This document shows positions 17,166 through 59,952 of a DNA stretch of 64,000 nt, piece by piece. Numbering within the stretch: the stretch's first letter is position 1; each line of letters starts with the position of its first letter. The stretch comes from Blattabacterium clevelandi (GTDB lineage: Bacteria; Bacteroidota; Bacteroidia; Flavobacteriales; Blattabacteriaceae), in NCBI RefSeq assembly GCF_003268615.1, contig NZ_CP029844.1:434001-498000 (forward strand), given 5' to 3'. Both the position numbers and the translations under genes were made by a program. The notes under the pieces are model-generated. The model did no database searches. It was not told the origin of the DNA and worked only from the letters and a program-made list of their open reading frames with translations.

Positions 17166-17173
17166 TATTTTTG
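17166..17173 (+). promoter_or_regulatory. Putative -7 promoter element for dapD
   Basis: TATTTTTG fits TAnnTTTG and ends 21 bp before the ATG at 17195. If used, transcription would start past the alternative TTG at 17171, supporting the ATG as start. Confidence 0.35.
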
Positions 17174-17194
17174 TCTTGGTTTGTATCAATTTTT

Positions 17195-18022
17195 ATGAAA
17201 GTAAATCAACTAAAATTAGAAATAGAAAATTACTGGGATAAAAAAAAAGAAGTATGGTCTACAAATAATAGTATCAAAAAACTAGTGATCCATGTTATTG
17301 ATTATGTAGAACAAGGATCAATAAGAGTTTCGGAGTTTATAAATGGAAAATGGAGAGTCAATGAATGGATAAAAAAAGCTATAATTATGTATTTTTCTAT
17401 AAAAAAAATGAAGACTATAGAATTTGGTCCATTCGAATTTTATGATAAAATACCAATAAAAAATAAATTTAAAAAGAAAGGAATTCGCGTAGTTCCTCAT
17501 GCTATAGTACGTTATGGTTCTTATATTTCTCCTGGAGTGATCCTAATGCCTTCTTATGTAAATATAGGATCTTATATAGGAAAGGGAACCATGATAGATA
17601 CATGGGCAACTATAGGAAGCTGTGCTCAAATTGGAAAAAGAGTCCATATAAGTGGAGGAGTTGGAATAGGAGGAGTTTTAGAACCAATACAAGATAATCC
17701 TGTAATTATTGAAGATAATGTTTTTATCGGATCTAGGTGTATTTTAGTAGAAGGAGTCCTTATAGAAAAAGAATCCGTATTAGGAGCAAATGTTGTTATA
17801 ACTTCCTCTACTAAAATTTTTGATGTAACAAATAAAAAACCTATAGAAATGAAAGGTGTAGTTCCTAAATATTCTGTAGTAATCCCTGGATCCTACCCAA
17901 AAAAATTTCCTTCAGGAATATATCATATTCCATGTGCAATGATTATAGGAAAAAGAAAAGAAAGCACTAATAAAAAAACATCTTTAAATGAAGCTTTGAG
18001 AACGCATCATCTTGTTTTGTAA
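17195..18022 (+). CDS. dapD: Tetrahydrodipicolinate N-succinyltransferase
   Basis: 275 residues, matching E. coli DapD (274). It succinylates tetrahydrodipicolinate in the meso-diaminopimelate/lysine pathway. The N-terminal helical part is followed by left-handed beta-helix hexapeptide repeats (GSYISPGVILMPSYVNIGSYIG is typical) and the conserved IGGVLEPIQDNPVIIEDN. An in-frame TTG at 17171 would add eight residues; the ATG fits the family better. With the aspartokinase at 58-60 kb it indicates retained lysine and peptidoglycan precursor synthesis. It starts a plus-strand run dapD-tsaC-cca-nrnA. Confidence 0.95.
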   Translation: MKVNQLKLEIENYWDKKKEVWSTNNSIKKLVIHVIDYVEQGSIRVSEFINGKWRVNEWIKKAIIMYFSIKKMKTIEFGPFEFYDKIPIKNKFKKKGIRVVPHAIVRYGSYISPGVILMPSYVNIGSYIGKGTMIDTWATIGSCAQIGKRVHISGGVGIGGVLEPIQDNPVIIEDNVFIGSRCILVEGVLIEKESVLGANVVITSSTKIFDVTNKKPIEMKGVVPKYSVVIPGSYPKKFPSGIYHIPCAMIIGKRKESTNKKTSLNEALRTHHLVL

Positions 18023-57178: not shown

Positions 57179-57195
57179 AATTATATTTTTTTATG

Positions 57196-57203
57196 CAAAA
57201 ATA
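57196..57203 (-). promoter_or_regulatory. Putative -7 promoter element for prs
   Basis: TATTTTTG on the minus strand fits TAnnTTTG, 17 bp upstream of the prs ATG in the 35-bp divergent gap with thyA. It leaves little leader RNA. Confidence 0.3.
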
Positions 57204-57213
57204 CTTTTTAAAG

Positions 57214-58008
57214 ATGAAACAATATTTAAATTTATTAAGAAACGTATTAAAAAATGGAATAAATAAAATGGATCGTACTGGTATAGGTACGAAAAGCATA
57301 TTTGGATATCAGATGAAATTTGATTTGAAAAAAGGATTTCCTCTTTTAACTACCAAAAAATTAAATATACGGTCTATTATCTATGAATTATTATGGTTTT
57401 TGAAAGGAGATACAAATATAAAGTATTTAAAAAAAAATAAAGTATCTATTTGGAATGAATGGGCTGATAAAAATGGAGATCTAGGTCCAATATATGGATT
57501 ACAATGGCGTAAATGGCCTACTTATGATGGTCATTATATTGATCAGATAGTTAATCTTATAGAAGAAATAAAATTAAATCCTAATTCAAGACGTTTAATA
57601 GTTTCTTCTTGGAATGTAGGAATGATTCCAAATATGGCATTACCTCCCTGTCATTTACTTTTTCAATTTTATGTTTATGAAAAAAAATTATCGTTGCAAT
57701 TATATCAAAGAAGTGCAGATATTTTTCTTGGATTACCTTTTAATATAGCTTCTTATGCTCTATTTCTTACTATGATAGCTAGAACGCTAAATTTTAGAGA
57801 AAAAGAATTAATTCACACTATAGGAGATGCCCATGTATATAATAATCATATAGAACAAATTCAACTTCAAATCCGTCGTACCCCAAAACCATTGCCAAAA
57901 ATTATTTTAAATTCTTCTGTTAAAAATATTTTTCAATTTAATTTCGAAGACTTTGAATTAAAAAATTACCATCCTGATCCTCATATCAAAGGTAACGTAG
58001 CTATTTGA
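57214..58008 (+). CDS. thyA: Thymidylate synthase
   Basis: 264 residues from ATG 57214, identical in length to E. coli ThyA and aligning at [15 protein letters not shown]; an upstream ATG at 57193 would add seven residues and overlap the putative prs promoter. It methylates dUMP to dTMP with methylene-tetrahydrofolate. Motifs: [35 protein letters not shown] with the catalytic Cys, [20 protein letters not shown] and [12 protein letters not shown]. Together with the dCMP deaminase at 63 kb it gives a dTMP route. Confidence 0.97.
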
Positions 58009-58023: not shown

Positions 58024-59952
58024 CTAATTTTGAAAATAATCGTAATGATTGGACATAGATATATTTTTTATTTTTTCTGAATTTAAAAAAATAACATCTA
58101 TTTTTTTTATTTTATCTCCAATGTTTATAAGATCGTTAATAGTGCTAATAACTGGAATATATACTCCTACATTTGTTTTGAATAAAAATGGATATTTTAA
58201 CAAATAGCTAGAAATCGTTTTTAATTTTTGATAATGATTATAATCAGAAGAACCAGTTATTTTTTCAATAGCTGTATTATCTAAAAATAAACTATTTCTT
58301 AAATTAAATTTCCATTTTTTTTCCATCAATGAATAGATCTTCATTTTAAGACCCTTTTTATTCATAAAATTGGATTTACATGGAGATAAATGGATTCCAT
58401 TTTTATTATCAAAATATATTCTTTGAATATTATTTGATAATCCAATTATTCTCATTTTAAGTTTTAATTTTTCAAGAAAATAATTTTTTTTTTGATCTAT
58501 TTTTTCAAGTAATTTATTTTCTACTTTTCCAACTCTACAAATAAAAAGATTAATTTGTTTTGGATTTTTTTCAAAAAAGGTTTCATGTAAGGTATTCAAA
58601 GCTTTTTTAAAATCTTTTTTTTGAATAACGGCTGATATATTTTTTTCCGTAGGACCTTGTGAAATAGCTCTTACCTTAATTCTATTTTTTCCTAAAGAAG
58701 AAAACATTTTTCCACTGGGGCCATGAATATTTTTCATATTGTATCCTACTAGAGCAATGATACAAAGATCATATTCTATTTTTAATGGATCGATATATTT
58801 TTGATATATTTCTTGAGAAAATTCACTATTTATTACCTTTTTTGCTTTAATGATATCCATTTCATGAATACCTGTGGTAATGAAATTTTCTGAAGAATTT
58901 TGGGTTATGAAAATTACATTTATTTTTTCACGTGATAAAACTTTAAATAAACGTTTTGAATACATTGATATACATATTATTAAACGAATTTTAAGAGTTA
59001 ACAAAGCTAAATTCTGAATTCCAGAAATTCCAGTAACTGGTTGACGGTTTTTTGTTTTTTTGTTACTAATATGAATTAAAGTTCCTGGATCTATTGGATA
59101 AAAGGTATTTTTAATTTTTATAGGAATATTCTTTTTCATAGCTGGTTTTATCGTTGGAGGATAAATGACTTTTGCTCCAAAATGCGATAATTCCATTGCC
59201 TCTTCATAAGAAATTTCTTTTATAGGAAATGCTTGATGAACCATTTTTGGATTTGCTGTCATCATACCACTAACATCCGTCCATATTTCAAGTAAACTAG
59301 CAGATATAGCAGAAGCTAAAATAGCTGCAGTATAATCAGATCCTCCTCTTCCAAGAGTAGTTGTTTGGTTTTGAAAATTTGATCCTATGAACCCTGGTAA
59401 AACCACATATTCTGATTTTTCTTTACGAAAAAATTGAAGAATATGGTGATTACTTTTAATAAAATCTACTTTTGCACATCCAAATTTGGAGTCTGTAATA
59501 ATTAAGTCCCTACTATCTTTGAAAATTGCATTTAATCCGGATTTTTTTAGTTTTTTTGCAATAAGAAAAGAAGAAAAAAGTTCACCAAAACTCATAATTT
59601 TATCTAAAGTACGTTTAGAAAGTTCTTTTACTTGAAAAATACCGTTACATAAACTTTCTAAATCATTGATATTTTTTTTTATCCAACTAATTAAATTACT
59701 TTGATAGTAGATAGGAAATAATTCTCTGATAATATGAAAATGCCTAATTTTTATTTTTTCTATAATATTTTTATAAACATTATTTCTTTCAGAAGCTAAT
59801 TGACCACATTGGATTAATTGATCGGTTATATTTCCTAATGCTGATACCACGATCGCATATTTTCCTTTTGGTTTTTTTTCTAATAAAGAACAAATACGTT
59901 TTATGGAATCAGAATGAGCTACGGAACTCCCCCCAAATTTTAAAACTTGCAT
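58024..59952 (-). CDS. thrA: Aspartokinase with truncated, degenerate homoserine dehydrogenase domain
   Basis: 642 residues against about 820 for aspartokinase-homoserine dehydrogenase fusions. The kinase domain (1 to about 280) is intact: MQVLKFGGSSVAHSDSIKR, LGRGGSDYTAAILASAISA, EIWTDVSGMMTANPK and ELSHFGAKVIYPPT. ACT domains span about 300-460. The dehydrogenase remnant starts near NLFICRVGKVENKLL, where GxGxxG is lost, lacks the TPNK-type segment that should precede DYNHYQKLK, reads TNVGVYIPVISTI for TNVGAGLPVI, and stops at the point where the catalytic core should begin. It should make aspartyl phosphate for lysine and diaminopimelate, but not homoserine. Confidence 0.88.
   Translation of the reverse strand: MQVLKFGGSSVAHSDSIKRICSLLEKKPKGKYAIVVSALGNITDQLIQCGQLASERNNVYKNIIEKIKIRHFHIIRELFPIYYQSNLISWIKKNINDLESLCNGIFQVKELSKRTLDKIMSFGELFSSFLIAKKLKKSGLNAIFKDSRDLIITDSKFGCAKVDFIKSNHHILQFFRKEKSEYVVLPGFIGSNFQNQTTTLGRGGSDYTAAILASAISASLLEIWTDVSGMMTANPKMVHQAFPIKEISYEEAMELSHFGAKVIYPPTIKPAMKKNIPIKIKNTFYPIDPGTLIHISNKKTKNRQPVTGISGIQNLALLTLKIRLIICISMYSKRLFKVLSREKINVIFITQNSSENFITTGIHEMDIIKAKKVINSEFSQEIYQKYIDPLKIEYDLCIIALVGYNMKNIHGPSGKMFSSLGKNRIKVRAISQGPTEKNISAVIQKKDFKKALNTLHETFFEKNPKQINLFICRVGKVENKLLEKIDQKKNYFLEKLKLKMRIIGLSNNIQRIYFDNKNGIHLSPCKSNFMNKKGLKMKIYSLMEKKWKFNLRNSLFLDNTAIEKITGSSDYNHYQKLKTISSYLLKYPFLFKTNVGVYIPVISTINDLINIGDKIKKIDVIFLNSEKIKNISMSNHYDYFQN

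Follow-up and report, generated by a model that had tools for sequence, protein, structure and literature searches.

Probable reduction of a bifunctional ThrA to an aspartokinase carrying a thrC-fused homoserine dehydrogenase remnant in a Blattabacterium of the Cryptocercus clade

An open reading frame over a decayed enzyme

The window analysed here, a 64,000-nucleotide stretch of the chromosome of a Blattabacterium strain from the clade of Cryptocercus symbionts (G000), contains an aspartokinase gene fused to a dead homoserine dehydrogenase (HSD) in a frame that is still open. What happened to the second enzyme, and why was the first one kept? The ORF at 58024-59952 on the minus strand was found to run for 642 codons without interruption, as the first-pass annotation had reported. 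The Pfam AA_kinase and ACT models matched the 642-aa protein, and PF00742, the HSD domain, had no match in it. The aspartokinase catalytic domain occupied residues 1-300 (59053..59952, minus strand; PF00696, E 1.3e-41, 143 bits), and its motifs KFGGSS, GRGGSDY and WTDVSG were all present in the alignment. It was followed, on the same strand, by the ACT1 effector domain (residues 313-385, 58798..59016), the ACT2 domain (residues 386-461, 58570..58797, PF22468 match), an HSD remnant (residues 465-615, 58108..58560) and a C-terminal tail with a TAG stop (58024..58107).

The ThrA model NF006959 was the best whole-protein model (residues 1-622) at 584.4 bits, below its cut-off of 726, while the intact 817-aa ThrA of the C. 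kyebangensis symbiont (G013) scored 995 bits. The aspartokinase subfamily domain TIGR00657 scored 370 bits, above its cut-off of 208.7. AlphaFold confidence, about 90 in the kinase, dropped across the HSD remnant to about 63 and then 48 and reached about 33 in the tail; the region of the G013 protein matching the remnant was modelled near 80.

Loss of the HSD domain

The HSD remnant, about 150 residues long, ended at the expected start of the HSD catalytic part. The window protein was aligned with E. coli ThrA and with the proteins of nine further Blattabacterium strains. The NAD(P)-binding GxGxxG motif, GVGKVG in intact strains, read RVGKVE in the window protein, confirming the reported loss of its glycines (two of three). 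A 60-bp in-frame deletion had removed 20 residues including ITCN of the TCNK segment, so that the equivalent of the TPNK-type segment was indeed lost, with its lysine remaining. The claim that the TNVGAGLPV block had disappeared was overstated, as TNVG was retained and the block was altered to TNVGVYIPV, compared with TNVGASLPV in intact strains. HSD sequence beyond about residue 615 was missing. PF00742 found no match anywhere in the 620,771-base genome and matched in 14 of 14 control genomes; with GxGxxG broken and the catalytic part absent, this agrees with the earlier description of the HSD as dead. A missed frameshift could not restore the C terminus, since thyA ends 15 bp past the stop and about 190 HSD codons are absent from the DNA; no HSD C-terminal DNA remains between stop and thyA.

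Origin of the C-terminal tail

In intact strains the gene order is thrA-thrB-thrC, followed by a convergent thyA. In the window, thyA (57193..58008, plus strand, PF00303) lies just beyond the site from which thrB-thrC was deleted. The window sequence ran GGAGATAAAATAAAAAAAATAGA and then switched to GTTATTTTTTTAAATTCAGAAAAAATAAAAAATATATCTATGTCC, which matched the thrC 3' end of G013 and of the intact strain G031. The last approximately 27 codons (58027-58107) were the in-frame 3' end of thrC, that is, the ThrC C-terminus (KKLEVLLNSEKSEKKISMSNNYDMFQNW vs KKIDVIFLNSEKIKNISMSNHYDYFQN-stop in thrC's own frame). The local alignment score of the tail was 114 against the G013 thrC end and 32-39 against HSD or thrB, while the maximum in 500 shuffles was 48. 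The earlier statement that HSD was cut before its catalytic core was right about the absent catalytic part; a plain truncation was ruled out by the match to thrC.

Relative to the intact operon, the deletion of about 2.76 kb had taken out the C-terminal core of HSD together with thrB and the greater part of thrC. Its parent sites lie 2,764 bp apart in G031, are both A-rich and contain TAGAAG, and A-rich homopolymers border the junction at 58,095-58,108. The fusion stop TAG sits at the position of TGG in thrC. As this TAG in the thrC tail was common to the C. punctulatus symbiont Cpu (G007), whose HSD remnant is shorter, the simplest reading would be one deletion in the common ancestor of the two strains followed by further loss in G007.

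The kinase-domain tree placed the strains as G013,(G000,G007) with a support of 0.999. In G013, with its intact ThrA, thrB and thrC were pseudogenes; G007 had a 530-aa ORF and lacked thrB and thrC. In another strain, G026, the thrA ORF retained the kinase and ended at 494 aa. The genome of the window strain consisted of a chromosome of 617,422 bp and a second contig (plasmid) of 3,349 bp, the latter sharing 94-97% identity with Cryptocercus symbiont plasmids. As side observations, NC_017925.1 (L151), a plasmid of the Blaberus giganteus symbiont, carried the same five protein accessions as pCPUml, NZ_CP029809.1 (L152), of the C. punctulatus symbiont, an identity that may reflect a mislabelled record, a sample mix-up or a very recent transfer. 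Also, no ORF of at least 100 aa was found at L141:11433-12455 (about 551.4-552.5 kb of the G000 chromosome, C1), where G013 has a hemC-like ORF, judged from its start to be a putative hydroxymethylbilane synthase.

Constraint on the kinase, ACT and HSD domains

Of the positions that never varied among all the other intact strains, the window strain had changed 3 of 152 in the kinase, 7 of 37 in ACT1, 5 of 55 in ACT2 and 15 of 72 in the HSD remnant; the same count in G013 gave 2/154, 0/37, 0/55 and 3/85. Fisher p values against the kinase were 5e-4 for ACT1 and 5e-6 for the HSD remnant, and are descriptive only, as neither the columns nor the related strains are independent of one another. Between G000 and G007, dN/dS was 0.26 for the kinase and 1.1 for ACT1, and HSD had 25 nonsynonymous changes to 1 synonymous change. 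On branches assigned by parsimony, HSD differed from the kinase (46:5 vs 30:14, p 0.01) and ACT1 did not (p 0.27), so the case for ACT1 decay draws mainly on the invariant columns. ACT1 positions of this kind were also changed in G007 (8/37), G026 (7/37) and the Mastotermes darwiniensis strain G036 (8/45), with 0-1 changed in G015, G009 and G010.

The kinase domain is thus well conserved and under purifying selection, and the HSD remnant shows relaxed constraint relative to intact relatives, as does a decaying gene in the reduced genome of an endosymbiont. Comparison with strains keeping full ThrA bore out both the loss of HSD motifs and the constraint on the kinase. The description of the ACT domains as intact did not hold, given the changes counted above, mild in ACT2. 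The ACT1 loop EGSGMIG-IPGYS had become KIRLIIC-ISMYS in the window strain; two glutamines (in QNSSE and QGPTE) were retained despite this altered effector loop. The residue aligned to S345 of E. coli ThrA, a known feedback-resistance site, was N in all six Blattabacterium compared and is therefore uninformative on feedback in the window strain.

Threonine, methionine and lysine pathway genes

A search of the whole genome of the window strain turned up no separate HSD gene, no thrB and no thrC, and the PF01053 enzyme was missing as well. metE was intact (open frame 778, above cut-off), whereas G007 has a pseudogene of it and G026 lacks it. No ilvA-type match was listed at E 0.001 for this strain or for G007, G013, G036, G015, G009, G010 and G026, and most strains that make threonine had such a match at around 100 kb, confirmed in G031 as a threonine ammonia-lyase. 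Of the proposed loss of homoserine, threonine and methionine synthesis, the first two stood with HSD, thrB and thrC gone, but methionine did not as stated. The loss concerns any route from homoserine to methionine; with metE intact, homocysteine could still be methylated. Supply of threonine and methionine by other partners is an inference published for the sister strains (PMC9603385).

The fused gene was the single aspartokinase gene, no second aspartokinase being found in the genome. Both asd and dapA were present, and dapD was confirmed in the window (17171..18022, plus strand; PF14805 and hexapeptide repeats). As the sole aspartokinase, under purifying selection and with asd, dapA and dapD present, the kinase was likely retained to supply aspartate semialdehyde for diaminopimelate. 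This upholds half of the suggestion that it was kept for lysine and diaminopimelate; lysine was not secured, because lysA was not detected in the genome with TIGR01048. The lone match to that model was a 466-aa protein (C1:59201-60385) with arginine decarboxylase as its best NCBIfam model, which makes cell-wall diaminopimelate the safer reason for retention. Lysine is listed as made in the Cp and Md strains (PMC9603385, Table 1).

Pattern across the genus

Among 49 Blattabacterium genomes, HSD was dead only in G000, G007 and G026. It was dead in three of the five genomes that had lost thrB, thrC and the PF01053 enzyme together, and in none of the other 44 (Fisher p 5e-4, with ancestry ignored). 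The PF01053 enzyme was full-length in 43 of the 49, missing from G000, G007, G013, G036 and G026, and broken in G064, where the gene (C1:84826-85460) was fragmented with stops and thrA, thrB, thrC and metE were intact. The M. darwiniensis strain, which also lacked thrB, thrC and the PF01053 gene, kept HSD in an intact 819-aa ORF (L128:6550-9009) with ACT1 eroded, leaving an orphan HSD and homoserine without a known use.

G015, G009 and G010 lacked thrB and thrC and had both the PF01053 gene and an intact HSD, with a dN/dS of 0.15 for HSD between G009 and G010. A constrained HSD and a PF01053 gene kept despite the loss of thrB and thrC suggest that homoserine is still used in these strains, plausibly for methionine. 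The best model for the PF01053 gene was cystathionine gamma-lyase/homocysteine desulfhydrase, below that model's cut-off, so the gene might encode a lyase acting in reverse rather than a cystathionine gamma-synthase. Among the 49 genomes the HTS model had no match, and the MetX model gave weak partial matches, none above a cut-off that the controls failed to reach as well. A methionine-pathway gap common to other Flavobacteriales is reported (PMC9603385).

We tentatively propose, at somewhat less than even odds, that HSD is kept while either threonine synthesis or the PF01053 methionine route remains, and that once both are gone decay sets in, repeatedly and in separate lineages, in HSD and in the ACT feedback site. 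If so, the genus would have an acyltransferase that has escaped recognition, or some other step that uses homoserine, as HSD and PF01053 are kept and no known homoserine acyltransferase was recognisable in the 49 genomes.

Meaning of the open frame

In a neutral simulation with about 42 changes, the 136 aligned codons of the HSD remnant stayed open in 6% of cases. The remnant's small length changes were +3, +3, -60 and +3, all multiples of three, the junction was also in-frame, and the HSD length change in G007 was -39. By contrast, six of nine length changes in the thrB pseudogene of G013 were non-triplet, as counted in a whole-region alignment that put the thrC end in the wrong place and served for the thrB part only. 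These figures hint at pressure to keep the frame open. The remnant and tail might then be held in frame for a structural job, such as stabilising the kinase oligomer, with only catalysis dispensable. We consider this improbable, since at 25:1 the remnant is changing at the pace of neutral DNA and is modelled with low confidence, G007 and G026 stop soon after ACT2 with the kinase kept in both, and the open frame is itself the reason this case was selected. The same 25:1 excess could be read as a new function acquired by the remnant, a far less probable idea, because several nonsynonymous sites exist for each synonymous one, the ratio is near neutral expectation, the catalytic part is gone and model confidence is low.

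An intact HSD broken by an assembly or sequencing error, to which the A-rich homopolymers flanking the junction might lend some weight, is just as hard to credit: the independent genome G007 has lost HSD at this locus too and carries the identical TAG in its thrC tail, the remnant contains many separate changes, and thrB and thrC are absent from the whole of an assembly that is 99.5% complete. We prefer decay of the remnant as the best explanation, with two counterpoints: an open stretch with triplet-only changes is more orderly than free decay, and lysA was not detected.

Proposed history and comparison with known systems

From the observed sequence anatomy, gene absences and relative constraint, we infer, with a probability of roughly 0.88, that a formerly bifunctional ThrA has in effect been reduced to a monofunctional aspartokinase whose HSD is a dead stump fused to thrC. 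Under this decay reading, thrB and thrC would first have lost their usefulness and decayed, as in the pseudogenes of the C. kyebangensis symbiont. The deletion, between sites that share a short stretch rich in A, would then have joined mid-HSD to the end of thrC in frame, after which the remaining HSD drifted. The kinase, presumably still active, would have been kept to feed aspartate semialdehyde to cell-wall diaminopimelate, whether or not the tail is made. ACT1, normally the end-product sensor, would also have drifted once no threonine was made to be sensed, and the kinase has probably lost feedback control as a result.

Such decay is ordinary in kind for reduced symbiont genomes; the added detail is specific and testable. 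It proceeds domain by domain within one fused protein, where the kinase is held while the HSD and the feedback sensor are let go. At least two Blattabacterium lineages show this independently, namely G026 and the Cryptocercus pair G000/G007, and ACT1 has decayed in the M. darwiniensis strain as well. The pattern predicts an aspartokinase free of feedback and offers a natural test for the homoserine-to-methionine step, the gap reported across Flavobacteriales (PMC9603385).

Threonine and methionine synthesis is lost and lysine kept in the Blattabacterium of Cpu and M. darwiniensis (PMC9603385, Table 1). The window strain shares their threonine pathway outcome and their clade, but differs in that its residual gene is a longer open fusion and its metE has stayed intact. 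That sister strains have lost threonine synthesis was already published; the thrC fusion, the ACT1 decay and the order of losses are added here. Like ThrA (aspartokinase/homoserine dehydrogenase I, NF006959), the window protein has a kinase and two ACT domains in identical order, but it lacks the HSD catalytic part and NAD-binding glycines, and its tail comes from thrC. Monofunctional aspartokinases (LysC; TIGR00656, NF006570) likewise combine a kinase with two ACT domains, whereas the window protein is a ThrA descendant with an eroded ACT1 and scores below the cut-offs of those models.
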